DNA of 64,000 bases from contig CM072339.1 in the NCBI GenBank assembly GCA_036874045.1, forward strand, positions 4,409,501-4,473,500, written 5' to 3'. This document shows positions 7,288 through 46,314 of the stretch, in pieces. This DNA comes from Cymodocea nodosa. Its lineage: Eukaryota; Streptophyta; Magnoliopsida; Alismatales; Cymodoceaceae. The position numbers and the translations under genes were made by a program. The notes under the pieces were generated by a model, which was not told the origin of the DNA, made no database searches, and saw only the letters and a program-made list of their open reading frames with translations. Position 1 is the first letter of the stretch. Each line of letters starts with the position of its first letter.

Positions 7288-8388
7288 CTAGGCAAACTTT
7301 TTAGGTATAATTCTTCTTACTATTAATTCCATTTTAATGCAGTCTACTTTCCTTTTTAACTTGTAAATTTGCAGTATGTTATCGATGCTAAATATAAGTG
7401 TATTACCATTAATGAATTGAAATGCAGAAAGGGATTCTCTTCTGTTCCAAGATAATGTAGTTGTTTCTATTGCTACATATATTTCAACATATTTCTCTTC
7501 CCACTTCCATTCATTTAGGTCTTTCATAATCTATATTTAAAATTTCATCAGTCCATCCCACCATCTTACTAAACATAAAGTAGGATCATCATATTCATTA
7601 TACTACATTCCTAATTGAATTTTATCATGTTCTGCAAATGGTGGTTCAACTATATCATTAGGTATATGTAATATTTCTATAAAGTCATTATCATAATTAT
7701 TTATGCTTACTATGTATAAATCAGATCTAAATGCAACTTATATATTTGTGACTAGATATATATATCCATCAAGTACAACATGTATATTGTTAACTAATGC
7801 TTTCTCTCCTAAATATATCATAGTGTTTTCAATCCAAGATCTATTCAGAAAATTATACACACTTAAACATAGATCCTCATCCCAATTTCATGTTGGTCTC
7901 CAATAATACAATTTTTCAGGAATGATTGAATTTTTATCAGAAAATGTTAAAGCTAACACACAATTCTCAGTTGGTATTTCAAATCTATTAGGCCTTCCTA
8001 TATTCCATTCTTCTCTAGTAATAAGATTTCTAATCAAAATATCGAGTAATAGAATAACATACCTTAGTTTGGTTCTGTAAATAATTAATCATTCATCTAT
8101 CCTCATAATATGATCTATTCTTTCTAATGTATTGGGTGGAATTTCAGTAGTTTCTTCCATATTCAGATATTCATAGCTGATTGAACAATGATTAAATAAC
8201 TTCCATAAAAATTCATATCTAATATTAGTCATCTTTGTAGCTTGTAGTCTATGAAAATATTTTTCTAACACATTCTTTAATTTCTTTTGACACACAACAC
8301 AATCTACATAGATCTTTAGCTAATAAGTTACTCAATACTTCCCTTAGTGCATCCAGTAGTAATTTCATCAATTTCATCTGTTGTGATT
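7288..8388 (-). pseudogene. F-box gene carried by Ath-B (broken)
   Basis: Homologous to the better F-box copies at 23508-24646 and 45148-46314. On the minus strand it begins just after a splice-acceptor-like CAG (8389-8391). It keeps recognisable stretches of the middle part (YEYLNMEETTEIPPNTLE) and the C-terminal part (WKWEEKYVEIYVAIET). The copy is decayed, with many breaks. The family normally recruits substrates to SCF ubiquitin ligases; nothing here suggests this copy is still expressed. Confidence 0.7.
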
Positions 8389-9984
8389 CTGTATAACATA
8401 AACAAAATTTAGTAGAGATAAAATTAATATAGCTACTTACATACCTTCATGGAGTTAGGTCATAATTCAACAGACTAAGTTTGTTGAGTTAAGTAATAAC
8501 TCTACAATACTATTAACTATAATTGAACTTTCATTTTCTTTTTATATTTTCTACTTAATATATTATATATAGTTGCTAACAATTATACTACCTCATTCAG
8601 CTTCCCTCCCATAGGAGGTATCAATTTTATTAACAGTTCTATTGACAAGGTTAGACACTACTTGCATTGGTAATCCTTTAGTAGGTCTAACTTCTATTGA
8701 TTCCTTCTGTCTAGGAGATATATTTCTATTCATATTTTGATTCTGAATGGCAATATTTCCAAATACATGGTTTAGACGATTGTTTAATTATTGAATTATC
8801 TTTTCTAATTTCTCTATTCTAGATCCTTGTTCAACTAATGCTTCATAACTTATATTTTTGTCATTTATATTTTCTCCTCCTTGAAAATTATTATTTCTCC
8901 AACATAGGTTCGAGTGATTTCTCTAATTAGGATTATAAGAATTTCCAAAGTTATCTTTTTGGTTTCTAGCATAAATAATATTTAAGTCATTAATATTTGC
9001 ATTCTTTTCTACTAGTTTTTGATTTAATGATAACTCCTCTATTTTCTTTGATAATTCAATTAATTTAACTTCAAGCATAGTGCTTGAATCTATTTTATGC
9101 ATTCCCCTTGACAATATTCTTTTATCTGTAATAGCTTCAGTTGAGTTGTCCCATTAAGCAGTTCTTTTTGCAAAGTTTTCTAAGTATGTCCATGCTTCTT
9201 CACTACATAGTTTTAAAAATCCATTTTGACAAGTAGATTCTAATAAAGATTTAGTTGAAACATCTATGCTTTCATAAATTATACCTATTAATTATGCTTT
9301 ACTCATTGTATGATGTGGACATTGAGTTAGTAAATCTTTAAATCGTTCAAAATATTTTCAAAATGATTCTCCTTGTTTTTGGCTACACATTAATATTTCC
9401 TTTTTCTTTTTAATCATTTGATGTGTTGGATAATATTTTTCTAGAAAAACAAAGTAAAATTCAGTCCAAGCAGAAATTGAATCAGGCGACAAAATATATA
9501 ACCATCTCTTAGCTGTCTTTTAAAGCAAAAAAAATATATCTAAGTTTAATAGCATCAATACTCATGTTCGGCATTTTCATCAGTTGACAAACTTCACTAA
9601 ATTCTCTAAGGAAATAATAGGCATCTTCTCTTTCTATTCCATGAAAGTGTGGCAATTGACTAATATAATTAGATTTCAGTTCAAACCTATCTCCCTCAAA
9701 GTTTGGCAATCGTATACATGAAGGTTCATCAACTAGTTCAGGATACAAAATTTCCCCTAATGGTTTTTCTACTAGAGCAACCATATATTTGTTCTCCTTT
9801 AAAGAAATGTTAGCTATACCCCTAAGGATTTTGTTAAAGTCCTATTCAGAAAATTTTTCAGTATACTTCTATGTTAAATAATATCGTCTAGATGTTCTTA
9901 CTAATCATTTAGTGCTAGGAGAACGAGTCCATGTGCTCATAAACTCTTAACATAAAATAAAATTGCAAAAGATTAATTATATAC
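8389..9984 (-). other. Intron-like GT...AG segment in Ath-B
   Basis: On the minus strand the segment starts GTATATAATTAATC at 9984 and ends TATACAG at 8389. Its borders match those of the homologous segment in Ath-A (21949-23498), and in Ath-C the flanking sequences are directly joined without it. It contains the gag capsid gene and the palindrome cluster at 8455-8530. Length 1596 bases. Confidence 0.7.
8600..9784 (-). pseudogene. gag: gag capsid gene of Ath-B, inside the intron-like segment
   Basis: The translation from 9784 carries typical Athila gag features: LPNFEGDRFELKSNYISQLP, then FHGIERED and YYFLREFSEVCQ, followed downstream by the polar coiled part with ELSKKIEELSLNQKLVEKN. It corresponds to the capsid-type Retrotrans_gag domain that packs retroelement RNA. 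It lies downstream of the env-like region rather than just after the 5' LTR, as in Ath-A. Broken. Confidence 0.75.
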
Positions 9985-14072: not shown

Positions 14073-14735
14073 TCTTTTGTTTAGAATGAAAAAGTGCATA
14101 TTATTAATGGTTAAATGATGGTTAATTGCATAATATTTATCTTATCATATGAGAATTAAGCCATTATGTTATAATTGCACTGTTATATGCTTTAATTGAA
14201 GAATCTGCTTAATTTTGGGGAATTAATGTTAATTTAGTACATTTATGAACTTTCGGTAAATTGTAGGCTGTGAAATTCTTAAGTATCCGAAAATGCATCT
14301 GAGCATCAGATAGTTATACCTTTAACTCTCCGAAATGTTATTTTATGTTTAAACTGCTGCTGACACGTGTCGAGATCTGATAGATTTACTTAAGTTATAA
14401 CTCGTTAAGTTAGCATAATTGTACGCGTTGAGTTGCTATATTGAACACTAAGGCAATGCGTTAGGTTAGCGTTATAAACTTAAGTTGTTATTTTTGCACG
14501 TGTTTTATAGTTAAATCAACGAAGAAAGTCTGTTGAGTTATCTGTAACTCCACGGACTATATATTTTCTAATATGCCACTATAGCGGTTGCAGGAATAGA
14601 CAGTTGGAAGGAAAAACCACATTCCCACGTATCACACAGGAATTCAATCATGTAGGGAGAAAGAAATCATCGCCATTGATCTGAAGGAAGGAAATCCAAC
14701 CGACCATTCATGTAGAAGCAGTTACTACTGAAGAA

Positions 14736-14744
14736 ATATAAAAG
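14736..14744 (+). promoter_or_regulatory. Probable LTR promoter TATA box (Ath-A 5' LTR)
   Basis: ATATAAAAG in an A-rich context, directly upstream of the conserved GC-richer leader. The same motif is kept in the other Athila LTRs of the window. Confidence 0.55.
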
Positions 14745-15625
14745 AAAAAAAGAAGAAGTGTGTGTGATCAATGGACTGCCAGTGTATACAGAGGAGGAGC
14801 ACCGAGCTTTCTACAGAAAGTATTGGCGATTCTCCGAAGTATCACACCAACCATCGTATCACCACCATAATCACCAATCATCAGAGGTCTGTGATGATAC
14901 TTGCCTGATGTCGGGTCGATTCCGAGCCAAACACAATGCCAGACAACTACTATGAGGAGTGATCGCGTCGCGGGAAGGGAAGCCATTTTCACCAAGCACC
15001 GACTCATATTTCAGGAGATCGTAAAACTTTTAGCCTTGGCTTCGGGTTGATGCCTGTATGCTGAAGAGGAGATCATCTTGCAATTCTGGACTCGTGATTC
15101 TATAGGGAGAGGAGACAAAATTGTAAGTGGTTTAATTTTCAGTGGTGTAATCGCATTGCAAGTAGTGTCGGAAGTATTTACTGTCAAGTGAGATTACTTT
15201 ACATTTCACCTTTCGTCCATCACATCAAAACAAAAATACCAAAAATAATTTATCTTTGTTTATATGTTGTATTTGAGTGTTGTATTGTTTATGTTGTATC
15301 GTGATTAATGTTATCTATATCAGTTTTATGATTGTTTTATGTTAGTTTTAATTTTACAGTTTACTGAAATTGGTTCGTATAAAAAACTTAAAGATTTTAA
15401 TGGTGACTATTTGAATCATCTGAATGTTAGTATTGCTTAATGATAAATCCAATGTTAACTAGCATTAAAAAGCTTAATTGATGTTATTTACAATCTGTGG
15501 AATCGCCCAATGGTTGGCCGAATTCCTCTGTAAATAGTAGTATTATAAAGAAGAGACAGGCTCGTGGAGTTAACTTAAGTCCACGAGCATAGTCCATTGA
15601 GTTAGTCATAACTCAACGAACTTAG

Positions 15626-15653
15626 TCCGTTGAGTTAACTGTAACTCAACGGA
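15626..15653. repeat. 28-bp perfect palindrome in the LTR
   Basis: Arms TCCGTTGAGTTA and TAACTCAACGGA with loop ACTG. The same 28 bases recur exactly at 20935-20962 inside the element. Confidence 0.9.
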
Positions 15654-15934
15654 GTGCTTATTGAATATAAATTTGAATTGTTCACAATCAAACATTTCTT
15701 AAATTCGTTAGCAATTCCTTGAGGGATCAACCTATACTTGCACACTGATACAATAGACACCGTACACTTGCAGTTAAAGTACAAATTGGAATTAATATCT
15801 AAATTGTATTAAAGGTTGTTTGTTTACTTCTAAAAGAAAGAATAGGCATAAAGATAAATTAACTAAGTAAAAAAATAGAAGTAACAAATCCAAATTTTTC
15901 TAGTGTAGTGCTAGGAAAAACCAAACAAATTTTA

Positions 15935-15952
15935 TGGCGCCGTTGCTGGGGA
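15935..15952 (+). other. Primer-binding site of Ath-A (Asp-tRNA type)
   Basis: TGGCGCCGTTGCTGGGGA lies seven bases after the LTR. It matches, with one change, the sequence complementary to the 3' end of plant tRNA-Asp that Athila elements use. Confidence 0.85.
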
Positions 15953-15963
15953 ATTGAATTGAA

Positions 15964-16986
15964 TTGAGTCGAAGTGAATTGAATAGATATAAGCAATTGC
16001 CAGAGCTGTTTCATTTTAATAGTCAGAGTTGTGTGTTTTCTTTTGTAATTGAGAATATGACATATGCTTATGCTCAAAGATTTCTGAAACCTTTAATTAG
16101 CATATGTGAATTCTGCAATTCTGAAGGACATGACATTTCTGATTGTTTGAAATTGAGACATTTACAGATTGTTAGATCCTATGAACAACAAATGAATTAT
16201 CCTCAATATAATAGAGCCGAGTATGAGAATCCTATAGTTTACCCAACTGATGGTCAGTATAGAATGTGTAATATGATGAGAGACACTGAAGTTTGGGATA
16301 GCTATGATAGACTAGAGCATAGTATAGAGCAAAATCTGGACAAACTGGAAAACTTTGTGTGTCAACAACAAGAAGTCAACTAGTTAAACTATAAGGAAGC
16401 ATATTCAGAACCTAAACAGGATATAATTTACAAAATTGAAAAAGCCATAAAGAAAATTGATCAAAAATTGAATGCAATCAAATTAGATGATCTAGAACCA
16501 AAAATAAAAGCATTAGACAAAAATGCAATGAAAATACAAGTTTTGCAACAGGACAATGAAAATTATAATGTTATAAACCTGCACAACTTGCAAAATATAC
16601 AACAAACAGAAAACACTAATGTAAGAGAATTTAAAGAATGCACTTTAAAACTAAAAACAATTGAAGATCATAATCACGAAAATGATATACAAAAACATCA
16701 TGAAAGTAACGAAAATCTGGAAGATGTATGTGTAACATTAAGATCTGAAATTGATATACCACCAAGAACTCAAAATGAAAATGATATGAAGGTGGACAAG
16801 AGTAAAAATCAAAATGATAATGAAAATGTAATAGCTGAAAATCTAGAAATCACTGAAGAACAATCTGAATCTGCAATTGAAGCTAAAAATGATCAAACAA
16901 ATCAACTAAAAGAAAAAGAGTCTTTGAAATCAAAATCTTTAGCACCCTATCCTGAAAGATTACAACAAATAATTCCTGAAAAATAA
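15964..16986 (+). pseudogene. gag: Ath-A nucleocapsid-type ORF and polar linker (5' gag position)
   Basis: The first part (to 16383) carries a CX2CX4HX4C zinc knuckle (CEFCNSEGHDISDC), which binds retroelement RNA. The following part (16468-16986) is a lysine-, asparagine- and glutamate-rich linker running up to the protease. No capsid domain is seen here; it lies at 22134-23319 instead. Broken. Confidence 0.7.
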
Positions 16987-17049
16987 GAAAAAATCAGAGA
17001 AATTTTTGAAAAAGTACTAAGTTAACATTCCTTTGTTAGATCTATTGTA

Positions 17050-17989: not shown

Positions 17990-19310
17990 TGCTGTCACCA
18001 CATATATTTAGAAGAGAATGCTAAACCTGTTAGAATTCCTGAGAGGAGATTAAATCCAAACCTTAAAGAAGTAGTTTAGAAGGAAATAGTTAAATGGTTA
18101 GATAATGATATAATTTATCCGATTTCTGATAGCTCGTGGGTTAGTCCAATCCATGTAGTTCCCAAGAAATCAAGATTAACATTTATTAGGAATGAAAGTC
18201 AAGACTTGATACCTACTAGAATTCAATCAGGTTGGAGAGTATGTATAGACTATAGAAAGCTGAATGCTGTGACTAGGAAAGATCATTTTCCCTTACTTTT
18301 TATAGATCAAATACTGGAAAGATTAGCAGGGCAAGAATATTTTTGTTTCCTAGACGGGTATTCAGGGTATAATCAAATTCCAATAGCATTAGAGGATCAA
18401 GAGAAAACAACTTTCACCTGTCCTAATGGAACTTATGCTTTTAAAAGAATGCCATTCGGATTATGCAATGCGCTAGCTACCTTTCAAAGGTGTGTGCAGG
18501 GCATATTTACTGGAATGACTGAAGAATTTTTAGAAATATTTATGGATGATTTTACTGTATATGGTAACTCATATGAAGTGTGTTTAAGCAATTTAGACCA
18601 AATATTAAAATGCTGTGTGGAAAAAAATCTGGTTTTAAATTGGGAAAAATGTCACTTCATGGTTAAACAAAGAATAGTCTTAGGGCATGTAGTTTCTAAA
18701 AAAGAGTTGGAAGTAGATAAAGCTAAAATAGAAGTAATTTCTTATCTATCAGAACCTAAATCAGTAAAAGATATTAGATCATTTCTAGGACATGCTGGTT
18801 TTTATAGAAGATTTATTAAAGACTTTAGCAAGATAGCTAGACCTTTAACTAATCTATTAAAAGATGTTCCATTTAACTTTGATAAAAATTGCATGGAAGC
18901 ATTTTTCAGACTTAAGACTAGCTTAATTTCAACTCTTATAATTCAAGCACCTAATTGGAACCATCCATTTGAATTAATGTGCGATGCTTTTGATTTTGCT
19001 GTAGGAGCAATGTTAGGACAGAAGATAGAAAAATCTCCTAGAGTGATTCATTATGCAAGCAAAACCTTAAATGATGCTCAAGTTAATTACACAACTACTG
19101 AAAAAGAATTATTAGCTGTTGTGTTTGCTTTAGAAAAGTTTAGATCATATCTGATTGGAGCTAAAGTAATAGTATACACGGATCATTCAGCTCTAAAACA
19201 TTTAATAAAGAAAAAAGAAACTAAACCTAGATTGATCTGATGGATATTATTATTGCAAGAATTTGATCTAGAAATTAAAGATAAAAATAGAAAAATCAAA
19301 TATTGAAATT
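17990..19310 (+). pseudogene. Ath-A reverse transcriptase and RNase H region
   Basis: RT motifs in order: [42 protein letters not shown], then FMDDFTVYG with the catalytic aspartate pair. The RNase H part follows ([44 protein letters not shown]). These are Athila-lineage sequences of the Ty3/gypsy group. The enzyme copies the element RNA into DNA in the capsid. The longest open stretch is 18206-19240. Broken. Confidence 0.88.
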
Positions 19311-19489
19311 AAGGATAATTTTCCTAATAAATAATTAATGACCATCAACACAATGCCTTGGTATGCAGACATAGTTAATTACTTAGTTACTGGTTTAACA
19401 CCTAAGGATTGGAATAGACAGGATAATAAATTATTTTTCTCAAGAGTAAAATATTACTATTAGGAAGACCCTTACTTATTTAAGAAATG

Positions 19490-20564
19490 TCCTGATCTGG
19501 TTTTAAGGAGGTGTGTTCCAGAAACTGAATATTCGAGTATATTGTCTTTCTATCATGACCAAGCTTGTGGAGGACATTTTGGTTCAGGGAAAACTACTGC
19601 AAAAATTCTGCAATGTGGGTTTTATTGGCCAACACTATTCAAAGATGCTCATAAATATTGCTTAAGTTGTTTAAGATGTCAACAAATAGGAAGAATATCA
19701 AAGAGGAATATGATGCCTCTTAATCCTATTGTTGAGGTTGAAATCTTTGATGTGTGGGGACTAGATTTTATGGGTCTATTTCCTATGTCTAATCAATTTA
19801 ATTACATATTGTTGGAGGTAGATTATGTATCAAAATGGATAGAAGTTATTCCTACAAAAACTAATGACAACAAAGTGGTAATTCAATTTATAAGAACAAA
19901 TATATTTGCTAGATTTGGAATACCTAAAGTTATTATCAGTGATAGAGGAACTCATTTCTGTAATAGAAGTTTTGAAGCCTTAATGAAGAAATATGGAGTA
20001 AACCACAAAATTGCAACATCATATCATCCACAAACAAGTGGACAAGTAGAAAGTGCAAATAAACAAATTAAATTAATCTTGGAAAAAGTAGTAAATCCTA
20101 CTAGAACAGATTGGGCTAATAGATTGATAGATGCACTTTAAGCTTATTGGGCATTAAAAGCTCTAAACACTAATTTAAATCAAGCTGCTGAAAATAGGAA
20201 AATGCAACTAATTGAATTAGAAGAATTTAGAAATGAAGCTTATTCGAAGATTGTAAGAGAAAAAGAGAAAATTAAATTCTGGCATGATAGAAAAATTATT
20301 CCTAAAAGCTTTGAAATAGGATAAGAAGTATATCTTTATTTGGCTAGACTCCATAACCATCCAGGAAAATTAAGATCTAGATGGTCAGGACCTTACATAG
20401 TTCGAAATGTTTATCCTTATAGAGCTATTGAAATTGAAAATCCTAAAAATCAGAATATATTTAAAGTAAATGGACAAAGACTTAAACCTATTTTGAAAAC
20501 ACCAAAAAGCTCCTTTGGAATTATAGAAGAAGTCAGAGTAGAGGACTACTCGAGCTTTACTTAG
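19490..20564 (+). pseudogene. Ath-A integrase region
   Basis: N-terminal HHCC zinc region (HDQACGGHF, then [14 protein letters not shown]), then the DDE core (VWGLDFMGLF, ISDRGTHFCN, and the glutamate region near [10 protein letters not shown]), then the C-terminal part ([13 protein letters not shown]). In this family it inserts the DNA copy into the chromosome. Broken. Confidence 0.85.
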
Positions 20565-20635
20565 TAAGAAATCAGTTTTATGTTTATATATATATATAAA
20601 CATTAAAAATATATATAAAACATAAAAATAGTTAC

Positions 20636-20812
20636 GGTTCAACCGATTGGATCCATCGGTATGACCGAAATATTAAAAAAAATTGTATATTAATTTTCAG
20701 AAAAAAATATTGGTTTTACCGAAACATAGTATCGGTTCAACCGAAAGAAAAATAAAAAAATAAAAAATATTTAGGTCTGATCGAAGCATAGTATCGGTTA
20801 AACCTGTAAAAA
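20636..20812. repeat. CCGAT/ATCGG-type hairpin array after integrase (Ath-A)
   Basis: Repeats of about 55 bases. Each has a small inverted motif such as ACCGA...TCGGT (TTTTACCGAAACATAGTATC, then GGTTCAACCG), alternating with AT-rich spacers. Corresponding arrays are at 13585-13885 and 49772-50036. Confidence 0.75.
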
Positions 20813-20864
20813 AATAGAGAAACTATTCTCTGTAATATTTTTATTATTATATTTGCTTGTACGG

Positions 20865-20962
20865 GGATTTCGTTGAGTTACTCTTAACTCAACGAGCCTA
20901 TTCCGTTGAGTCTTGAGTTAGTCAACGAGCTTATTCCGTTGAGTTAACTGTAACTCAACGGA
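20865..20962. repeat. Palindrome cluster downstream of the hairpin array (Ath-A)
   Basis: Includes 20935-20962, identical to the LTR palindrome at 15626-15653 (arms TCCGTTGAGTTA and TAACTCAACGGA), and a second imperfect copy upstream. Confidence 0.85.
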
Positions 20963-21454
20963 GTACTGTAGCTAAAACCTAAAATTAGAAAAACTCCAGA
21001 AGTAAGTAGATGAATTTAGGCATAGAGATTAAATTGTATTGTTCGTCTACTTGTGTAAAATTGTATGAAATTGTATGATGTACTTTTAATGTAATTGATT
21101 CATATTAATGAATATAATTTTTCAGATGCAATTTTCATACGTATTTGGATGTGAAATGAATGGAATTTATTGAATATTATGTAATTTGTGGAACTTTATG
21201 AATATGTAACAGATTTATAATTTGCTAAATGATAGGATAACTGCTTAAAAATTTCTGCATGTTATAAGGTAAAATGTAAATTATGCATAACATAAAATGA
21301 CCTGCAAGTTAAATCTTTATATAATGTTCAGATTTAAATATATTTTAATCAAAATGAGGCATTAATGACATAGATTTAACTTTATTACAGTTAGCAGAAT
21401 GACAAAGAAAAAAAAAACAGAATAGAAAACTTACGAGAGTGAAACTTAGAAGTT

Positions 21455-21630
21455 GCCAACTGTTAACTCAACGAAGTAAGTCCATTGAGTTAACCGTAAC
21501 TCCACGAGGTCAGTAATATAATATAAGAAAGTCTGTTGAGTTATCTGTAACTCAATGAAGTTAGTCCGTGGAGTTAGCAACAGTAATCGACTGTGTTCTG
21601 TTGAGTAATCTGTAACTCAACGAGGTTAGT
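21455..21630. repeat. Palindrome cluster upstream of the F-box module (Ath-A)
   Basis: Several imperfect GTTGAGTTA...TAACTCAAC and GTTGAGTTATCTGTAACTCA hairpins in a row. Confidence 0.75.
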
Positions 21631-21754
21631 TTGTGGATTAAGCAGAATGGTTATTCTTTTAACCACAAACGAAACTTCATTGGTTTAGTGGTTACCAAAA
21701 TTTGAAATTAGTAGTGGTACACGTACCCACATAAACACAGGAACCACGATGCAT

Positions 21755-21777
21755 GTTGCAAGAACGTGTCCTGCAAC
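21755..21777. promoter_or_regulatory. 23-bp palindrome upstream of the Ath-A F-box module
   Basis: Arms GTTGCAAGA and TCCTGCAAC around an ACGTG core. In element sense the core is flipped relative to Ath-B and Ath-C. It lies about 30 bases upstream of the TATA-like motif. Confidence 0.5.
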
Positions 21778-21805
21778 GAGATTTGTTCACTTTATGGATG
21801 CGTAG

Positions 21806-21814
21806 TATATATAT
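21806..21814 (+). promoter_or_regulatory. TATA-like motif, possible internal promoter of the F-box module
   Basis: TATATATAT in the context CGTAGTATATATATGAAACA. It is kept at the same place in Ath-C (46431-46439, minus) and as TATATTTATAAT in Ath-B (10117-10128). It lies about 140 bases upstream of the intron-like segment. Confidence 0.45.
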
Positions 21815-22133
21815 GAAACAGAATATTATTTACGAGTTACCAGCACTTTTAAAAGAAAGGAGAAAGCGTTGGAGGAATTGGAAGGAGAAGTAGCTGATTC
21901 AACCTTCATCCGACAACAAATATTTATAGATTGGAAAGCTTCAGACTGGTATGTAATTAATCTTCTGTTATTTATTTATGAGCACATGGACTCGTTCTCT
22001 AAGCACTAAACGATTAGTAAGAACACCTACCTAGGAATTTTCATTACAGAGGAGTACTGAAAAATTTTCTGAACTGAACTTTAACGAAATTCTTTGGGGT
22101 GTAGCTAACCTTTCTTTAAAAGAGAACGTAGAG

Positions 22134-23319
22134 ATGGCTGCTCCAGTAGAAAAACTATTAGGAGAGATTCTATATCCTGAATTAATTGATGAACATTCAT
22201 GTATTCGATTGTCAAACTTTGAGGGAGATATGTTTGAATTGAAATCTAATTATATTAGTCAATTGCCACATTTTCATGGATTAGAAAGAGAGGATGTCTA
22301 TTATTTCCTTAGAGAATTTAACGAAGTTTGTCAAATGATGAGAATGCCGAACATGAGTATAGATGCTATTAAACTTAGATATATCCCTTTTGCTTTAAAA
22401 GATATAGCTAAGAGATAATTATATACTCTATCGCCTGATTCAATTTCTACATGGACTGAATTTTACTCTGTTTTTCTGGAAAAATACTATCCAACACATC
22501 AAAAGATTAAAAAGAAGAAAGAAATATTAATGTGTAGCCAAAAACAGGGTGAATCATTCTAGAAATATTTTCAAAGATTTAAAGATTTACTAACTCAATG
22601 TCCACATCCAATGAGTAAAGCACAATTAATAGGCATAATTTATGAAGACATAGATGTTTCAACGAAATCTTTATTAGAATCTACTTGTCAAAATGGATTT
22701 TTAAAATTATGTAGTGAAGAAGCATGGGCATATTTAGAAAATTTTGCAAAAAGAACTGCACAATGGGAAAATTCGGCTGAAGCTATTGCAGATAAAAGAA
22801 TATTGCCAAGAGGAATGCATGAAATAGATTCCAATACTATGCTTGAGGTGAAATTAAATGAATTAACAAAGAAAATAGAAGAGTTATCATTAAATCAAAA
22901 GCTAGCAAAAAAGAATACAAACATAAATGACTTAGATATTATTTATGCTAGAAACCAGAGAGATAACTTGGGAAATTCTTATAATCCTAATTGGAGAAAT
23001 CACCTGAATTTATCTTGGAGAAACAACAATTTCTAGGGAGGAGAAAATATAAATAACAAGAACATAAGTTATGAAGTATTAATTGAACAAGGAGCTAGAA
23101 TAGAGAAATTAGAAAAGATAATCCAACAAGTAAACAATCGTCTCGAATTTATATTTGGAAATGCTGCAAATCAAAATCAGAATAGAAATATATCACTTAG
23201 ATAGAAGGAACCAATGGAAGTTAGACCTACTGGAGGATTGCCAATACAAGCTATACCTAATCCTGTCAATAGAACGATTAATGAAATTGATACCTCTTCT
23301 AGGAAGGCAGCTGAATGAA
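22134..23319 (+). pseudogene. gag: gag capsid gene of Ath-A, inside the intron-like segment
   Basis: Translation from 22134 gives IRLSNFEGDMFELKSNYISQ, then FHGLERED and YYFLREFNEVCQ, the familiar start of the plant Retrotrans_gag capsid domain. Next come the TWTEFYSVFLEKYYP region and LLESTCQNGFLKL with WAYLENFAKRT (about 22440-22780), and a coiled, polar tail. Athila gag normally follows the 5' LTR; here it is downstream of integrase and on the same strand. Broken, with few breaks. Confidence 0.85.
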
Positions 23320-23374
23320 GCAGCATATCTAAAGTAACTATCTATATGTATATATGTTTTTATTTTAAGTTAAT

Positions 23375-23440
23375 AGTATCGTAGAGTTAATTTTTAACTC
23401 AACAAACTTAGTCCGTTGAGTTATGCCTTAACTCCACGAG
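23375..23440. repeat. Palindrome pair between capsid gene and F-box gene (Ath-A)
   Basis: GTAGAGTTAATTTTTAACTC and GTCCGTTGAGTTATGCCTTA with the following AACTCCACGAG form two imperfect hairpins. Ath-B has the counterpart at 8455-8530. Confidence 0.65.
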
Positions 23441-23507
23441 GGTGTGCAGTAGTTATGTTAATTTTTGTCTCTACTAAATTTTTGTTTTTATTTTACAGAA
23501 TCGACAA

Positions 23508-24646
23508 ATGAAATTGATGCAATTACCGTTGGATGCACTAAGGGAAGTACTAAGTAACTTGTCAGCTAAAGATCTGTGCAAGCTGTGTTGTGTATCAAAG
23601 GAAATTAAAGACTGTATTGAAGAAAAATATTTTCAGGGACTACAAGCTGCAAAAATGACTAAGATTAGAGATGGATTCATATGGAGGTCATTTAATTGTA
23701 GTTCAAATACCCATGAATATCTGGCTATGGAAGAAACTACTGGAATTCCACCCAATGCATTAGAAGGAATGAGTTATATTATGGGGATAGATGAAGGATT
23801 AATCATATACAAGATGAGACCAAGGTATGCAAGTTTATCATTACCTGATATTTTGATAAGAAATCCTATAACAGGAGAAGAATGGAATATAGGAAGACCT
23901 AATATATTTGAAGCACCAACTGAAAATTGTGGGTCAGCTTTAATATTTTCTGATAAAAATTTTGCAATTCTTGAAAAATTATATTATTGGAGACCTACAG
24001 AAATTAGGGTGAAGATTTACGCTTAAGTATGTATAATTTTCTAAACAGATCTTGGAATGAAAACATTATAATATATCTAGGACAGAAATCATTAATTAAC
24101 CAAACACATGTCATACTTGATGGATATATCTATTTAGTCACGGAGATATCAATAGCATATAGATCTGATTTATACATAGTGAGCATAGACAGTTATGATG
24201 ATTATATAGAAATTTTACCTGTACCGAGTGAAATAGCTAAACCACCATCTACAGAATTTAATGAAATTCAAATAGGAATGTGGTATAATGAAGAAGATGA
24301 TCCTACTTTATGTCTAATAAGATGGTGGGATGAACTGATGAAATTTCAAATATGGATTATGGAAGACATGAATGAATGGAAGTGGGAAGAGGAGTATATT
24401 GAAATAGATGTAGAAATAGAAACTGCTACATTACCTTGGAACAAAAAAGGATCCCTTTCTGCATTACATATCATTAATGGTAATACACTCGTATTTGGAA
24501 TTTATAATATATTGCATGTTTACAAATTAAAAAAGAACAAGAACTGCATTAAAACAGAATTAATAGCAAGAAGAACTATGCCTAAAAAGTTTGCTTGGAC
24601 TGATACATTTATTCCATTTGTTTCTACTTTTCAATCATGTTCTTAA
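23508..24646 (+). pseudogene. F-box gene carried by Ath-A
   Basis: The first 45 residues are an F-box: LMQLPLDALREVLSNLSAKD, then LCKLCCVSKEIKDCI. F-box proteins bind SKP1 and bring substrates to SCF ubiquitin ligases. The rest, about 330 residues, looks like an F-box-associated domain: HVILDGYIYLVTE (about residues 200-215), then FQIWIMEDMNEWKWEEEYIE, then LHIINGNTLVFG. Total length near 375 residues, usual for F-box/FBA proteins. It starts ten bases after the acceptor of the intron-like segment. The frame appears broken about once or twice. Homologues at 7288-8388 and 45148-46314 sit in the same place, so the gene is part of the element. The nearest host gene is not identifiable from the sequence alone. 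Confidence 0.8.
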
Positions 24647-26390
24647 GCTGTGATTTTGTGTATTTAATGTTGTGTATTCTGCATTTATTTTTAGAAAGAA
24701 AAAAAATTTTTTTTTTGAAGTTTTCATGTTCATTTAAAAAAAAAAACAAACAAACGAACAAACAAAACAAAATATCAATCCAATTTGTTGGTATCTGTTC
24801 TGGGAAAGCAACTGGCTTGCTTGTGAGCCACCAAAGGCATAGGAGCTTGAGTTCCATACAAGACACTGATTTATTAATATCTGTTAAATGTTATTTTGTT
24901 TTATATTCTGTGTTTATCTGGGAATGAAAAGTTTTTCAGAATCAAAAATCAGAATATGCAGAAAGAGATACAAATGGATCAAGGTATGTAACCAATTAAT
25001 TATCCTGAATTTTAAATCAAACAAAACTTTATTCATGCCTGCTACAATTATTGTACTTATTGTCAAATCTTTTACATTGAGGACAATGCAAAATGTAGGT
25101 ATGGGGGGGAGGTAATTAAAGTAACAGCCATGTAAGTTTGTTAATTAAAGGAATTAAAATGGTATTACAAAGTTTTGAGAAAATTGAAAATTTTTATGAA
25201 CTTGCTGTAACTATCCGATAATTGAGACTGTAAAATTTTTATAAATTGCTTGAATGTTATATTTAGAAGGTTATAGAAGATGCTATAGAATTTATTATTT
25301 ATGTAAATCTAGATATAGTATCTTATGATTTTTTTGAATTTCATGAGTTTAACAGTTTCACTATTTTAAAATGAAATCAGAATATTTAATGCTTAATCAG
25401 AAAATTATCTGAAGTCCTGAAGGAGCTAAGATGTGAATTCTAGATTAAATGAAACACATATGATGAAAGATACATTTACTTTGACTAATTGAACTTGTAG
25501 AATGATTTATGTGTAGATCTTATTAAACTACAGATAAAGTATGAGCTTATTGTTATGGATTCATATCTTTAGTAAATGATAGAAGTAGGATTATATGAGA
25601 TTGGTGTTTTATTGCATCTGTATTAATGAAATACGTTCATATGCAGTATGTGATTAATGCTTTGTTTTGTGTGTGCATTTATTTTTTTAAAAAGAAAAAG
25701 AAAAAGAAAAAAACTTTGGGAGTTTATTGACTTGTTTGATCACGAGCCTTTTGTACTTGAGCAGATAGGTATGTAAGGATTGTTGACCTGAAAAAGGACT
25801 CTGAAAATCTGGCAACCTAAGATCCTAATCAGATCTGGGATTGTTGATTGAAAGCTCGTTACTTGGGTACATTAGAAAGCTCTTGTATGATTCAAGCTTG
25901 TCAAATTAACTTTTAAAGTACAAAAAAAGAAAAACATATACTGTTCTAAAAAGATACAAGTGTTTTGTGAAATATAGATATCTTATGAATCGAGTATATT
26001 TTCTATTATCTAGAATTGCTGAAATATGAATCTGGAATTAACTTTTGAAGTTGTTTAATGGAAATACAATTCTTTATTCTACTTGTCTTAATCAGATTGA
26101 ATTAGATTGTACTTTGATTCGTATATTGTTGAAATTTCTTCTAGAAAACTTATTGGAAAATTCAAGATAATAGATGATGAAAAGAAGAACAAACGATAAT
26201 ATAATTAACACCTATATGAAGATGATATACTTTGTATGTAATTTACATATATTCTAAATATCTTTGCAGGTTGATTATTGAAACATACAGAATATATGTT
26301 TATGCTGAACAAAAGAAAAAAACAAAAGGGGAAGAATTAATTTGAGCACTTTTTGAAAGACCAATTAATTAGATCTTAGTTTGCTAAGGG
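24647..26390 (+). other. Ath-A 3' untranslated region with an internal purine tract
   Basis: No gene. It has A- and T-runs (24700-24770), and an internal tract at 25096-25112 (ATGGGGGGGAGG) preceded by TTGAGGACAATGCAAAATG, a phrase typical of plant gypsy elements just before their polypurine tract. AAGAAAAAGAAAAAGAAAAA lies near 25695. Confidence 0.65.
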
Positions 26391-26395
26391 ACTAG

Positions 26396-29300
26396 TGTTC
26401 GAGGTTTCCCAGCACTACACTAGAAAAACTTGGATTTGTTACTTCTATTTTTACTTAGTTAATTTATCTTTATGTCTATTCTTTCTTTTAGAAGTAAACA
26501 AACAACCTTTAATACAATTTAGATATTAATTCCAATTTATACTTTAACTGCAAGTGCACAGTGTCTATTGTATTAGTGTGCAAGTACAGGTCGATCCCAC
26601 AGGGAATTGCTGACGAATTTAAGAAATGTTTGATTGTGAACAATTCAAATTTATATTCAATAAGCACTCCGTTGAGTTACAGTTAACTCAACGGACCAAG
26701 TTCGTTGAATTATGGATAACTCAACGGACTATCCTCGTGGACTTAAGTTAAGTCTACGAGACTGTCTCTTCTTTATAATACTACTAATTACAGAGGAATT
26801 CAGCCAACCATTGGGAGATTCCACAGATTGTAAATAACATCAATTAAGCTTTTTAATGCTAGTTAACATTAGATTTATCATTATGTAATACTAACATTCA
26901 GATGATTCAAATAGTAACCATTAAAATCTTTAAGTTGTTTTGTACAAACCAATTTCAGTAAACTGTAAAATTAAAACTAACATAAAACAATCATAAAACT
27001 GATACAGATAACATTAATCACGATACAACACCAACAATACAACACTCAAATACAACATACAAACAAAGATAAATTGTTTTTGGTATTTTTGTTTTTATGT
27101 GATGGGTGAAAGGTGAAATGTAAAGTAATTTCACTTGACAGTAAATACTTTCGACACTACTTGCAACGCAATTACACCACTGAAAATTGAACCACTTACA
27201 ATTCTGTCTCCTCTCCCTATAGAATCGCGAGTCCAGAATTGCAAGATGATCTCCTCTTCAGCATACAGACATCAACCCGAAGCCAAGGCTAAAAGCTTTA
27301 CGATCTCCTGAAATATGAGCCAGCGCTTGGTGAAAATGTCTTCCCTTCCCGCGACGCGATTGTTGAGCTATATTTTTAGCTCAAGCTTTACTGCAAGTGC
27401 ACAGTTCTTTTGGTGTACATGGCAAATACAGGTCATTCTTCCACAAGGATTATGTTTATGACTTAATCAACTATTACTCAACTTGTTCTTCAAGCTCTTA
27501 GGTATACTTCAGTAAATTAATGACATGTGAATGTAAAATAATCAAAGTTAACACAAGCTCACAAATCATGCAATTTCAAGGCAATTTGTAGTGGAAAATG
27601 GTGATGTGAATCAATTTCTTTACTTGTAAATCTATCAACTCATTCAATTATAACATGCACACAAGTTCCACGTGATTTCAGAAGTGATATCAATGCATCA
27701 ATATTAAGGAAAGAAAAATAAAACAACAAGGTTCAATAGACTATACTACTCTATTCTAATTTATACTAAATGCATGCAACTATGCTATTTGCTAATCTAG
27801 CTAAACTATACTATACTACTTGCATTAGAAATTCTTTTTGGAGATTGATTAGGACAAAATGTGATCTATATAAGATATAACAAAATCAATTAACTACTGA
27901 AATTAAAATTAACAACTAGATATAAGTGATAGGTTCTTCATTCAAATGAACATCAACACTTATTTTCTTCTTCTTTCAATTCACACCTTCTTCTCAAATG
28001 CGCCAAGCCACCATTGATGAGTGTCATTCACTCGTGTGAAAGCCTCACCAACAGCCCCAACAATACATGTGAATAGAGGATGCAAATTAGAAGTTGAAAA
28101 GAAGAATTAAACATTCATATACATTCATTGAACTCTATCTAGCTAAGAAGACATATAATTGAGATGTTCACCACCATTTCTCATCAATTCTTCCTTCTAT
28201 ACAAGAAAATAATAAACTCTAAGAGTTGTCACTACCTTAGGAGCTTCTTATCTTCTTCTCTAGAGCTTTGAATTCAATGGAACTTGGCAGCAAATCCACC
28301 TCCAAGCTTGGACGTCTTCTCCTTAGCCCTTGGAATGGTGAATAGCATTAATGGATGGTCTCCTTGCAAGCATAAGCCTCACCTCCAAGCTTTCTTCTCT
28401 TCTTTCTTTCTCTCCTTGGATGCACCAAGGTGTTGGCCGAAAATCCTCTCCCCTTGTATTTATGTTGTTTTGTCTTCTCTCTCTTTGATGTGGCACCTTG
28501 GTTTTATCACCAAGCCAATAAGATGCCATAGATCTAGGAGGGCCAATAAGGTGTTGGCATGTCCTCTTCTTTAAAGTTTAGTCCACCAACTTTTGATTCT
28601 TTACATCTTCTTTGGTCTTTTGCATTAAGCTCCTCCCATATATATGTTACCTACAATTAATGGAAGTTGAACTCCAAGAGACATTAGCCAACATAGGACA
28701 TGCAAAATAAATCAATGTGTTTCATGTAAAATTATATCTAATGGGGGATGCACTTGTTAATTAAATTTCTATATTGCACTATATTTCAAGACTTATATTA
28801 CCCATAATTAATATCATTTATCCATCATAGGTATATAATATCATGCAAAATTACTTATAAAATTCATTAAAAATGGGCAAAATTAAAGCTTGAACAGCGA
28901 TCACTCCTTACAGTGGTTGTCAGGCACTGTGTTTGGCTCGGAATCGACCCGACATCAAGCAAGTATCCTCACAGACCTCCGATGATTGGTGATTATGGTG
29001 GTGATACGATGGTTGATGTGATACTTCGGAGAATCGCCGATACTGTCTGCAGAAAGCTCGGTGCTCCTCCTCTGTATACACTGTCCGTCCATCGATCACA
29101 CTTTCTTCTTTTTCTTCTTTTCTTTTATATTTCTTCAGTAGTAACTGCTTCTGCTTGAATGATCAGTTGGATTTCCTTCCTTTAGATCAACGGTGATGCT
29201 TCCTTCTCCATGCGCGATTGAATTCCTACGTGATACGTGCAAACATGGTTTTTCCTTCCAACTGTCTATTCCTACAACCGCTACAGTGGCATTTTGGAAA

Positions 29301-29728
29301 ATAACTATAAAATACATGCAATAAAGAAATAAGTTGTTAACCTAACGCGTTACCTTAGTGTATATTCATGTAACTCAATGTGTATAGTTATGTTAACTTA
29401 ACGAGTTATAACTTAAGTAAATCTACCAGCTCTCGACACGTGTCAGCAGCAGTTTAAACATAAAATAACATTTTAGAGAGTTACAGGTATAACTATTTGA
29501 TGCTCAGATGCATTTTCAGATACTTAAAAATTTCACAGCTTGCAATTTACTGACAGTTCATAAATGTACTAAATTAACATTAATTCCCCAAAATTAAGCA
29601 GATTCTTCAATTAAAGCATATAATAGTGCAATTATAACATAATGGCTTAATTCTCATATGATAAGCTAAATATTATGCAATTAACCATTATTTAACCGTT
29701 AATAATATGAACTTTTTCATTCTAAACA
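26396..29728 (-). mobile_element. Solo Athila LTR nested in Ath-A
   Basis: Minus-orientation LTR bounded by TGTTCGAGG and CATTCTAAACA, with the 5-bp direct repeat ACTAG at 26391-26395 and 29729-29733. Only LTR sequence lies between, so it is a solo LTR (about 1.79 kb) that was itself interrupted by the element at 27361-28896. Same family as the Ath-A LTRs. Confidence 0.9.
27361..28896. mobile_element. Solo LTR of a different, unidentified family
   Basis: 1536 bases starting TGTTGAGCTA and ending AGCTTGAACA, flanked by the 5-bp direct repeat GCGAT (27356-27360 and 28897-28901) inside an Athila LTR. TG...CA ends, a 5-bp target repeat and the absence of coding sequence fit a solo LTR. The phrase TTTACTGCAAGTGCACAG near the left end resembles a phrase in the Athila LTRs. 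Frames around 28284-28574 are not convincing genes. Confidence 0.8.
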
Positions 29729-29740
29729 ACTAGCAAAATT

Positions 29741-29755: not shown

Positions 29756-31610
29756 TGTTTAGAATGAAAAAGTTCATATTATTAACGGTTAAATAATGGT
29801 TAATTGCATAATATTTAGCTTATCATATGAGAATTAACCCATTATGTTATAATTGCACTGTTATATGCTTTAATTGAAGAATCTGCTTAATTTTGGGGAA
29901 TTAATGTTAATTTAGTACATTTATGAACTGTCGGTAAATTGCAGGCTGTGAAATTCTTAAGTATCCGAAAATGCATCTGAGCATCGGATAGTTATACCTG
30001 TAACTCTCCGAAATGTTATTTTATGTTTAAACTACTACTGACACGTGTCGAGATCTGGTAGATTTACTTAAGTTATAACTTGTTAAGTTAGCATAACTGT
30101 ATGTGTTGAGTTGTTATATCGAACACTAAGGCAACACGTTAGGTTAGCGTTATAAACTTAAGTTGTTATTTTTGCACGTGTTTTATAGTTAAATCAACGA
30201 AGAAAGTCCGTTGAGTTATCTGTAACTCCACGGACTATATATTTTCTAATATGCCACTATAGCGGTTGCAGGAATAGATAGTTGGAAGGAAAAACCATGT
30301 TCCCACGTATCACGCAGGAATTCAATCACGTAAGGAGAAAGAAATCATCGCCGTTGATCTGAAGAAAGGAAATCCAACCGACCATTCAAGCAGAAGCAGT
30401 TACTACTAAAGAAATATAAAAGAAAAGAAGAAAAAAAGAAGAAGTGTGTGTGATCGATGGACGGCCAGTGTATACAGAGGAGCACCGTGCTTTCTGCAGA
30501 AAGTATCGGCGATTCTCCGAAGTATCACACCAACCATCGTATCACCACCATAATCACCAATCATCGGAGGTCTGTGATGATACTTACCTGATGTTGGGTC
30601 GATTTCGAGCCAAACATAGTACCTGACAACCACTGTGAGGAGTGATCGCGTCGCGGGAAAGGAAGCCATTTTCACCAAGCGCCAACTCATATTTCAGGAG
30701 ATCGTAAAGCTTTTAGCCTTGGCTTCGGGTTGATGCCTGTATGTTGAAGAGGAGATTATCTTACAATTCTCGACTCGCGATTCTATAGGGAGAGGAGACA
30801 AAATTGTAAGTGGTTTAATTTTCAATGGTGTAATCGCGTTGCAAGTAGTGTCGGAAGTATTTACTGTTAAGTGAGATTACTTTACATTTCACCTTTCGCC
30901 CATCACATCAAAACAAAAATACCAAAAACAATTTATCTTTGTTTGTATGTTGTATTTGAGTGTTGTATTGTTGGTGTTGTATCGTGATTAATGTTATCTG
31001 TATCAGTTTTATGATTGTTTTATGTTAGTTTTAATTTTACAGTTTACTGAAATTGGTTCGTACAAAAAACTTAAAGATTTTAATGGTGACTGTTTGAATC
31101 ATCTGAATGTTAGTATTGCTTAACGATAAATCCAATGTTAACTAGCATTAAAAAACTTAATTGATGTTATTTACAATCTGTGGAATCGCCCAATGGTTGG
31201 CCGAATTCCTCTGTAAATAGCAGTATTATAAAGAAGAGACAGGCTCGTGGAGTTAACTTAAGTCCACGAGGATAGTCCGTTAAGTTAGCCATAACTCAAC
31301 GAACTTAGTCCATTGAGTTAACTGTAACTCAACGGAGTGCTTATTGAATATAAATTTGAATTGTTCACAATCAAACATTTCTTAAATTCGTCAGCAATTC
31401 CTTAAGGGATCGACCTATACTTGCACACTGATACAATAGACACTGTGCACTTGCAATTAAAGTACAAATTGAAATTAATATCTAAATTGTATTAAAGGTT
31501 GTTTGTTTACTTCTAAAAGAAAGAATAGGCATAAAGATAAATTAACTAAGTAAAAAAATAAAAGTAACAAATCTAAGTTTTTCTAGTGTAATGTTGGGAA
31601 AAACCAAACA
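29756..31610 (+). repeat. Ath-A 3' LTR
   Basis: TGTTTAGAATG...ACCAAACA, 1855 bases, collinear with the 5' LTR and followed by the target repeat TCTTT at 31611-31615. In the last 147 bases seven differences from the 5' LTR were counted by eye. Confidence 0.92.
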
Positions 31611-31615
31611 TCTTT

Positions 31616-32421
31616 CATGAATAATTTCTTCTCCATATCTCCAGATGTCTTTGTTGACCTGAAGTTTTTACGTTTCTTCAATAGATTTCTAAATTTTCTA
31701 GTCAATAATAGTAAATCATCGTCAAAATCACTAGTGACTTTTGAGCGTTATCAGCCTCAAAAGCCAGATCCGTTCTAGGATTCTTTCCTTTTGGATCTAA
31801 ATGTTGTACTTCATAGGTTGTTAAATTGCCTATGAGATCATCAAGAGTATATGTATTTAAATCTTTGGACTTTTCAATAGATGTCTTTTGAACCCAAATT
31901 TTAGTTAAAGATCTAAGGATCTTTCTTACCAAGTCTTTTTTCTTGAATTTCTTGCCTAAAGATTTTAATGAATTTATAGTCTCAAGAAAATGGGAAAACA
32001 TAACAGAGATACATTCATTTTCATGCATTTTAAAAAACTCATATTTATGTACTAACATATTAATCTTAGATTCCTTGACTTGGTTAGTACCTTCGTTGGC
32101 AACTTCTAATGCATACCATATCTTATATGTAGTTTGATATGCAGAAATTTTGTTAAATTGATCATGAGATAAAGCACAAAACAAGATGTTTAAACCTTTA
32201 GCATTTAGTGACATTCGCTCCTTTTCATTAAAAGTCCAAGTATCATATGGAGTCGTAACTAACACTATAGGATTGCTAATTATATGCCATAATTTGAAAT
32301 CAATTAACTGAAAGAATATTTTCATCCTATATTTCCAGTAGTCATAATTGCTACCTTCAAACATAGGAGGACGATTAGTGGTTTGTCCTTTAATCATAAT
32401 TAAGATTTCAATATTATCCAT
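31616..32421 (-). pseudogene. gag: Cop-1 gag, N-terminal and capsid part
   Basis: Translation from 32421 gives PPMFEGSNYDYWKYRM, the standard copia gag opening, then WTFNEKERMSLNAK and YKIWYALEVANEGTNQVKES, all typical of the UBN2-type copia gag domain. It is collinear with the Cop-2 gag (42391-42564 and 56661-57600). The reading frame from 32421 stays open for about 239 residues. In life the protein forms the virus-like particle. Confidence 0.85.
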
Positions 32422-42564: not shown

Positions 42565-44418
42565 TATTCGTGTTTTCCCAGCACTACACTAGAAAAACTT
42601 GGATTTGTTACTTCTATTTTTACTTAGTTAATTTATCTTTATGTCAATTCTTTCTTTTAGAAGTAAACAAACAACCTTTAATACAATTTAGATATTAATT
42701 CCAATTTGTACTTTAACTACAAGTGCACAATGTCTATTGTATCAGTGTGCAAGTACAAGTTAATCCCATAGGGAATTGCTGACGAATTTAAGAAATGTTT
42801 GATTGTGAACAATTCAAATTTATATTCAATAAGCACTCCGTTGAGTTATAATTAACTCAACGGACTAAGTTCATTGAGTTATGGATAACTCAACGGACTA
42901 TCCTCGTGGACTTAAGTTAACTCCACGAGCTTGTCTCTTCTTTATAATACTGCTAATTATAGAGGAATTCGGCCAACCATTGGGCGATTCCATAGATTGT
43001 AAATAACATCAATTAAGCTTTTTAATGCTAGTTAACATTGGATTTATCATTATGCAATACTAACATTCAGATGATTCAAACAGTAACCATTAAAATCTTT
43101 AAGTTGTTTTGTACGAACCAATTTTAGTAAACTGTAAAATTAAAACTAACATAAAACAATCATAAAATTGATACAGATAACATTAATCACGATACAACAC
43201 CAACAATACAACACTCAAATACAACATACAAACAAAGATAAATTGTTTTTGGTATTTTTGTTTTGATGTGATGGGCAAAAGGTGAAATGTAAAGTAATTT
43301 CACTTGACAATAAATACTTCTGACACTACTTGCAACGCGATTACACCACTGAAAATAGAACCACTTACAATTCTGTCTCCTCTCCCTATAGAATCGCGAG
43401 TCCATAATTGCAAGATGAACTCCTCTTCAGCATGTAGGCATCAACCCGAAGTCAAGGCTAAAAGCTTTACGATCTCCTGAAATATGAGTCGGCGCTTGGT
43501 GAAAATGTTTTTCCTTCCCGCGACGCGATTACTCCTCACAGTGGTTGTCAGGCACTGTATTTGGCTTGGAATCAATCCGACATCAGGCAAGTATCCTCAT
43601 AGACCTCCGATGATTGGTGATTATGGTGGTGATACGATGGTTGGTGTGATACTTCGGAGAATCACTGATACTGTCTGTAGAAAGCTTGGTGCTCCTCCTC
43701 TGTATACACTGGCCGTCCATCGATCACACCCTTTCTTTTTTTTCTTTTTTTCTTTTATATTTCTTCAGTGGTAACTGCTTCTACTTGAATGGTCAGTTGG
43801 ATTTCCTTCCTTCAGATCAACGGCGATGATTTCTTTTTCCCTACGCGATTGAATTCTTACGTGATACGTGGGAACGTGGTTTTTCCTTCCAACTATCTGT
43901 TCCTGCAACCGCTATAGTGGCATATTAGAAAATATATAGTTCGTGGAGTTACAGATAACTCAACGGACTTCCTTCGTTGATTTAACTATAAAACACGTGC
44001 GAAAATAACAACTTAAGTTTATAACGCTAATCTAACGCGTTGCCTTAGTGTATTTTCATGTAACTCAATGCGTGTAGTTATACTAACTTAACGAGTTATA
44101 ACGTAAGTAAATCTACCAGCTCTCAACACATGTCAATAGCAGTTTAAACATAAAATAACATTCCGGAGAGTTACAGGTATAACTATCCGATGCTCAGATG
44201 CATTTTCGGAAACTTAAGAATTTCACAGCCTGCAATTTACCGACAGTTCATAAATATACTAAATTAACATTAATTCCCCAAAATTAAGCAGATTCTTCAA
44301 TTAAAGCATATAACAGTGCAATTATAACATAATGGCTTAATTCTCATATGATAAGCTAAATATTATGCAATTAACCATCATTTAACCGTTAATAATATGC
44401 ACCTTTTCATTCTAAACA
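42565..44418 (-). repeat. Ath-C 3' LTR
   Basis: 1854 bases, collinear with 54835-56655. The palindrome with 12-base arms lies at 42837-42864. Directly followed on the right by the reversed purine tract CTTCCCCCATACC. Confidence 0.92.
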
Positions 44419-45147: not shown

Positions 45148-46314
45148 TTAAGAACATGATTGAAAAGTAGAAACAAATGGAATAAATGTATCAGTCCAAG
45201 CAAACTTTTTAGGCATAGTTCTTCTTGCTATTAATTCTGTTTTAATGTAGTTCTTGGTCCTTTTTAATTTGTAAACATGCAATATATTATAAATTCCAAA
45301 TACGAGTGTATTACCATTAATGATATGTAATGCATAAATGGATCCTTTTTGGTTCCAGGGTAATGTAGCAGTTTCTATTTCTACATCTATTTCAATATAC
45401 TCCTCTTCCCACTTCCATTCACTCATGTCTTCCATAATCCATATTTGAAATTTCATCAGTTCATCCCACCATCTTATCAGACATAAAGTAGGATCATCTT
45501 TTTCATTATACAACATTCCTATTTGAATTTTATTAAATTTTTCAGATGATGGTTTAGCTATTTCACTCGGTATAGGTAAAATTTCTGTATAATCATCATA
45601 ACTGTCAATGCTCACTATGTATAAATCAGATCTATATGCTATTGATATCTTCGTGACTAAATAAATATAACCATCAAGTATGACATGTGTTTGGTTAATT
45701 AATGATTTCTATCCTAGATATATTATAATGTTTTCATTCCAAGATCTGTTTAGAAAATTATACACACTTAAGCGTAAATCTTCACCCCAATTTCCTGTAG
45801 GTCTCCAATAATATAATTTTTCAGGAATTGCAAAATTTTTATCAAAAAATATTAAAGCTGACCCACAATTTTCAGTTGGTGCTTCAAATATATTAGGTCT
45901 TCTTATATTACATTCTTCTCCTGTTATAAGATTTCTTATTAAAATCTCAGGTAATGATAAGCTTGCATACCTTGGTCTCGTCTTAAATATGATTAATCCT
46001 TCATCTATCCCCATAATATGACTCATTCCTTCTGATGCATTGGGTGGAGTTCCAGTAGTTTCTTCCATAGCCAGATATTCATGAGTATTTGAACTACGAT
46101 TAAATGACCTCCATATCAATCCATCTCTAATCTTAGTCATTTTTGCAGCTTGTAGTCCTCGAAAATATTTTTCTTCAATACAGTCTTTAATTTTCTTTGA
46201 TACACAACACATCCTGCACAGATATTTAGTTGACAAGTTACTTAGTATTTCCCTTTGTGCATCCAACGGTAATTGCATTAATTCCATTTGTCGATTCAGT
46301 CTGAAGCTTTCCAT
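45148..46314 (-). pseudogene. F-box gene carried by Ath-C
   Basis: F-box at the start (LMQLPLDAQREILSNLSTKY, then LCRMCCVSKKIKDCIEE), a middle part with LAMEETTGTPPNASEG, and a C-terminal FBA-like part with FQIWIMEDMSEWKWEEEYIE and LHIINGNTLVFG. Highly similar to 23508-24646. Here the module leader runs straight into the F-box part, because the intron-like segment is absent, and an ATG at 46314 lies in the leader 24 bases before the one used in Ath-A. The two main frames are 46314-45709 and 45615-45148; it looks broken about once. The role would be substrate choice for an SCF ubiquitin ligase, inferred from the motif only. Confidence 0.82.

Follow-up and report, generated by a model that had tools for sequence, protein, structure and literature searches.

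Why should a plant long terminal repeat (LTR) retrotransposon carry an F-box gene, and does the element use it? The question arises from a 64,000-nucleotide stretch of the Cymodocea nodosa genome (C7:4409501-4473500, here called the window), in which three copies of one large element have an F-box gene at the same place; the genome searched comprised 374,616,459 bases in 28 contigs. The best explanation, which we hold at a probability of roughly 0.75 from the sequence comparisons below, is that the gene is a standing, selected accessory gene of a Ty3-type family, expressed via removal of an intron and encoding an adaptor of SCF ubiquitin ligases. The intron, the capsid gene inside it and the spliced DNA copies are new beyond the original prediction, a reading of the window made from its letters.

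The F-box gene in the element family

The original prediction had proposed an F-box motif in genes sharing one position and strand within three element copies. Pfam found the F-box domain (PF00646; cut-off, 20.5 bits) in copy 2 (23508-24023; 39.3 bits; E value, 5.2e-10) and copy 3 (46314-45712, minus strand; 39.5 bits; E value, 4.2e-10), as well as in two relatives with open frames (42.8 and 43.3 bits). The Pfam scan covered copies 2 and 3; the gene of copy 1 (8388-7288, minus strand) was identified by DNA alignment, sharing ∼82% identity with those of copies 2 and 3, which are 95% identical to each other across the F-box region. Self-alignment also placed the gene at the same position and on the same strand relative to the element in all three copies, as had been proposed. 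The exons are as follows.

23499..24646, plus strand: F-box exon of copy 2; ATG at 23508, frame broken
45148..46296, minus strand: F-box exon of copy 3; one in-frame stop
7288..8388, minus strand: F-box exon of copy 1; several stops

The encoded protein is of ordinary plant type, ∼378 amino acids long, and full-length open frames were present in two of the fetched copies. Protein searches with the N-terminal piece and with an open relative gave no match under the threshold, a PDB sequence search gave nothing significant, and a fold search with a poor model returned no match at an E value of 0.001 or better.

Judged from their different target repeats and from an empty-site paralogue, copies 2 and 3 are independent insertions. 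The element of copy 2 (14078-31610) lies between TCTTT repeats at 14073-14077 and 31611-31615, and that of copy 3 (42565-56655, minus strand) between CGACT repeats at 42560-42564 and 56656-56660 (hand-counted coordinates). Sequence paralogous to the flanks of copy 3, but unoccupied, lies within 31610-33762; the target is at 32251-32255. The repeats named in the original prediction therefore bound two full-length elements and, together with the empty site, bear out its claim that the gene was carried by transposition. Divergence between LTRs (Kimura two-parameter) was 0.050 for copy 2 and 0.046 for the main LTR part of copy 3. Copy 1 is a truncated, older element without a demonstrated target repeat, so that of the three independent copies claimed, independence holds for copies 2 and 3.

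A Pfam-based search of the genome for F-box domains gave 4,220 candidates, of which 150 were scored and the best 48 read. Among these, 46 lie in this element family (44 of 46 when assembly duplicates are removed): seven members and one ordinary gene at ranks 1 to 8, all 20 places at ranks 9 to 28, and 19 of 20 at ranks 29 to 48, where locus L047 was unclear. Three places at ranks 9 to 28 (L026, L027, and L028) share one match table and were therefore counted as one. The order of parts was the same in the 46 element places, where enough sequence was read, and the gene occupied a fixed place between the capsid open reading frame (ORF) and the 3′ untranslated region (UTR) in nearly all copies read.

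Since F-box score had determined the choice of the 48 places, other tests began from other parts of the element. Searches with reverse transcriptase (8,418 candidates, 117 scored) and capsid (5,275 candidates, 150 scored) returned scored matches at least 92% identical to the query. Comparing hit lists by eye, at least 14 reverse transcriptase matches had a capsid match 5.5 to 6.2 kb downstream and at least three more had one at 3.1 to 3.3 kb, while at least eight capsid matches were followed by an F-box match within 0.3 to 0.5 kb. A 23-base motif at the capsid end, chosen regardless of the F-box, occurred at 488 sites genome-wide, and an exact F-box start pattern stood at the expected distance at ∼335 of them (69%; at least one site counted twice), with none in reversed-pattern controls. 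At the fetched loci with this motif, all chosen by F-box, the start was in place in 13 of 13. These counts strongly support the view that the F-box gene is a standing part of the element, as the original prediction had it; most members appear to carry it.

At five places (C4:3445672, C3:15685283, C1:20958265, C1:7121706, and C14:13077122), capsid or F-box follows reverse transcriptase at only 2.6 to 3.3 kb, not ∼5 to 8 kb; from these spacings, shorter subfamilies probably exist. At locus L018 (1-9901), two F-box copies of the family are neighbours, separated by UTR and LTR sequence.

An intron holding the capsid gene

Directly before the F-box exon of copy 2 lies an intron of 1,550 bases (21949-23498) that starts with GTATGT and ends with TTACAG. 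Exactly these bases are missing from copy 3, in which exon reads straight into exon. By this comparison the F-box gene is the downstream exon of a GT...AG intron containing a Gag capsid ORF. The parts concerned are listed below.

21949..23498, plus strand: GT...AG intron of copy 2; 1,550 bases, exactly absent in copy 3
46296..46297, minus strand: spliced junction of copy 3; GACTG joined to AATCGAC
8389..9984, minus strand: intron with capsid remnant, kept in copy 1
22035..23033, plus strand: Gag capsid ORF inside the intron of copy 2; broken
15958..16380, plus strand: 5′ ORF segment of copy 2 with a CCHC zinc knuckle (nucleocapsid part of Gag); knuckle seen by eye, no Pfam match

The capsid domain (Retrotrans_gag, PF03732) fell below the cut-off in the window (0.038) and gave E values of 6e-19 and 1e-19 in two relatives. 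The zinc knuckle, located by eye in the 5′ ORF before pol, lies ∼180 bases behind the 5′ LTR and therefore leaves no room for a capsid before pol. Gag thus appears to be split, the knuckle preceding pol and the capsid lying past both pol and the env-like region, inside the intron. The donor GT was kept in all 22 distinct unspliced copies aligned there, and the acceptor AG in 36 of 42 copies. Another TTACAG, ending at 22049 ahead of the capsid, resembles an acceptor and was considered as an alternative; it was joined to the same donor only once genome-wide.

The exact spliced junction occurred 172 times in the genome and the exact unspliced donor at least 2,000 times, with no occurrence of either reversed-pattern control. 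Among the fetched sequences, the junction pattern matched the five spliced copies and no others, and the donor pattern matched 13. Five of 47 distinct copies, window included, were spliced (copy 3 of the window, L011, L037, L041, and L046), and the rest keep at least part of the intron. Outside the window, at least six spliced junctions lie ∼5 kb downstream of a reverse transcriptase match. An IQ-TREE phylogeny built from 36 F-box exons requires five changes to account for the five spliced tips, and well-supported branches force at least four of these changes. The approximately unbiased test rejected one common origin for all of the spliced tips (p-AU, 1.8e-50); pairing of copy 3 with L046 was weakly rejected (p-AU, 0.033), and that of L011 with L037 was not rejected (p-AU, 0.085). 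Because exact intronless copies are numerous and have several origins, spliced element RNA is taken to have been reverse transcribed and integrated, and by this phylogenetic evidence capsid-less copies were made several times from spliced RNA.

Coding constraint and competing explanations

Constraint was assessed as observed over expected nonsynonymous change, with substitution rates drawn from the 3′ UTR. Nonsynonymous change in the F-box frame was 0.58 to 0.60 of expectation, and 0.60 to 0.66 when the 45 codons holding the domain used for sampling were removed. Read in its two other frames, the same DNA gave 0.82 to 1.51, and pseudo-frames of the UTR gave 0.63 to 1.23; the capsid frame gave 0.43 to 0.57 and its other frames 0.67 to 1.41. 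Plain Nei-Gojobori (NG86) omega, with a median of 0.37 for distant pairs, was set aside; UTR pseudo-frames also gave low values by this method (0.50 to 0.86), and the mutation-corrected test was therefore relied on. By that test the F-box frame is under coding constraint. For the close pair of copies 2 and 3, omega was near 1. Much of the divergence is probably postinsertional, and the active lineage was therefore probably under stronger constraint than that measured. Constraint on the frame and recurrent splicing onto the gene together support its use by the element.

Several observations weigh against this interpretation. The F-box frame is broken in all three window copies, being lost near 24,000 in copy 2, stopped once in copy 3, and cut by several stops in copy 1. 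The FBA-like C-terminal half claimed by the original prediction stood as a weak resemblance; FBA_1 stayed under its cut-off in window copies and relatives (E value, 0.01 to 0.055; 13.8 to 16.2 bits against 21.1), and the predicted structure of this half is mostly beta at low confidence (pLDDT, 52). The constraint is moderate, the sequence pairs are not independent, and the bootstrap was over codons only; two UTR bins (0.63 from 4 pairs and 0.76 from 26 pairs) lie near or overlap the F-box value. The 48 places read were selected for their F-box, and ∼31% of capsid-end sites are without the exact F-box start pattern, a set that may include changed bases, other spacings, and true absences. The capsid ORF sits downstream of pol, where its translation is unexplained, and the single genome-wide join of the donor to the pre-capsid acceptor speaks against a capsid message made in that way.

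The broken window copies and the omega near 1 between copies 2 and 3 would suit a functionless passenger, captured once and copied passively with a successful element, which would amplify any cargo. A passenger would not be expected to show a ratio of ∼0.6 in its own frame, held at 0.60 to 0.66 outside the sampling domain, when the other frames reach 0.82 to 1.51, nor to persist as open full-length frames with splice donor and acceptor kept; we regard this explanation as improbable. The capsid-less copies could also be ascribed to ordinary DNA deletion, since such losses happen in these elements and copy 2 has itself a 2.3-kb gap without GT...AG ends. Deletion would have had to join the same GT...AG pair to the exact base in separate lineages, a join that occurs 172 times, while joining the same donor to the other acceptor-like site just once, and it is very unlikely to be the source. 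Least credible of all is that the repeated position of the gene reflects segmental duplication or an assembly artefact: the one match table given by L026, L027, and L028 on three contigs is what an artefact would leave, whereas the differing target repeats, the empty-site paralogue, the depth of the tree, and matches on many contigs contradict it, and for copies 2 and 3 it is refuted.

A weightier alternative concerns the target and not the existence of a function. The F-box protein may act on the element itself instead of on host defence, for example by keeping Gag or some other element protein in check. The same splice exposes the F-box and takes away the capsid ORF, so that the two products are linked, and coding constraint is compatible with any function, self-regulation included; we consider this possible, though on balance unlikely.

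Under the preferred reading of a selected accessory gene expressed by splicing, unspliced RNA would be the genome and carry the capsid gene, while splicing would remove the capsid and bring the upstream exon right up to the F-box ORF. The spliced RNA would yield the F-box protein, which would join the host SCF ubiquitin ligase through SKP1 and mark some protein for destruction. The likeliest class of target, as a guess, would be a host silencing or restriction factor, the alternative being the element's own proteins. Two further inferences of the original prediction, that the lineage amplified a host F-box gene and that it may have used the gene against host control, stand as conjectures. A bolder and rather doubtful extension is that splicing serves as a switch: unspliced RNA would give capsid, spliced RNA would give an F-box protein that turns SCF on the silencing machinery as a counter-defence, and packaged spliced RNA would seed capsid-less copies mobilized in trans.

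Element structure, related systems, and meaning

The remaining parts of the two full-length elements are as follows.

14078..15927, plus strand: 5′ LTR of copy 2, ∼1.85 kb
15935..15952, plus strand: primer-binding site of copy 2, TGGCGCCGTTGCTGGGGA, presumably of tRNA-Asp type
18206..19237, plus strand: reverse transcriptase and RNase H of copy 2
19542..20138, plus strand: integrase of copy 2
20983..21948, plus strand: env-like tail of copy 2, the exon upstream of the intron
24647..26390, plus strand: 3′ UTR of copy 2
26396..29728, minus strand: nested inverted solo LTR of the same family in copy 2; target repeat ACTAG, interrupted at ∼27361-28896
29756..31610, plus strand: 3′ LTR of copy 2, preceded by a purine tract
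32251..32255, no strand: unoccupied paralogous target site of copy 3
42565..44418, minus strand: 3′ LTR of copy 3
51328..52368, minus strand: reverse transcriptase and RNase H of copy 3, the query for the family search
54843..56655, minus strand: 5′ LTR of copy 3

The element is of Ty3 type, with integrase following reverse transcriptase and RNase H and with LTRs, a primer-binding site, a polypurine tract, and 5-base target repeats. The family is a large one, probably of the Athila clade. The Athila label of the original prediction is plausible because of the reverse transcriptase-RNase H-integrase order, the 1.85-kb LTR and the primer site, which we take to be of tRNA-Asp type. An ORF region is present between pol and the 3′ LTR, its best match being only Transposase_32 (PF20167), below the cut-off (21.0 and 28.0 bits against 45).

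A 2.3-kb piece of the env-like part, retained in copy 3, is missing from copy 2 (join at 20979/20983; copy 3 stretch, 49601-47265); this gap was rejected as a splice, its edges not being GT...AG. The solo LTR stands just before the 3′ LTR of copy 2, and together they form a large palindrome (29338-30146). Elsewhere in the window, Copia-type pieces lie on the minus strand at 31705-32421 and 38004-38459 (Retrotran_gag_2; E value, 8.5e-22; RVT_2; E value, 3.9e-37), and there are short tandem duplications of ∼160 bases at 57950-58174 (91% identical) and 33859-34157 (86%).

Polerovirus P0 and lentiviral Vif are viral adaptors of host cullin ligases. If the SCF role holds, the element would share with them a parasite-encoded ligase adaptor; it differs in having an ordinary plant-type F-box protein. 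In the Athila/Calypso/Diaspora lineage, the primer is of tRNA-Asp type, and loss of env in Diaspora through reverse transcription of anomalously spliced RNA has been proposed (PMC1142308). Reverse transcription of spliced RNA is thus common to both cases, being proposed there for removal of env, whereas the present family carries an F-box gene, has its capsid ORF past pol within an intron, and exists in numerous spliced DNA copies. Plant LTR elements are known to contain extra ORFs, env-like ORFs reached by splicing, and captured genes (PMC7264820), and in Retand elements the same region contains ORFs in antisense orientation (PMC11963269). In a known plant element, a sense ORF of that region is likewise reached via splicing; here the ORF is a recognizable F-box gene and the intron holds the capsid. 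In orchids, a Gypsy lineage has fixed a domain of cellular type that is thought to serve host-element conflict, though this is an AlkB-type RNA demethylase and not an F-box; F-box is not mentioned in that study's section on screening 121 angiosperm genomes (PMC9289625). F-box genes are also tied to mobile DNA in nematodes, where they are fused to transposon domains; in that case it is a host gene that acquired a transposase domain, whereas here the mobile element carries the F-box gene (PMC12062965). Searches of the openly available literature, largely at the level of listings, turned up no account of Athila or any other plant LTR family with an F-box gene among its standing parts.

As 46 of the 48 best-scoring F-box places are transposon genes, annotation of F-box genes calls for caution. 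The intron provides a built-in record, in which every DNA copy of the spliced form marks a spliced RNA that was reverse transcribed and integrated. Retroviruses and plant viruses encode active counter-defence, as plant LTR elements may do too, and a constrained, element-wide F-box gene offers a defined candidate protein for SKP1 binding and for its substrates.
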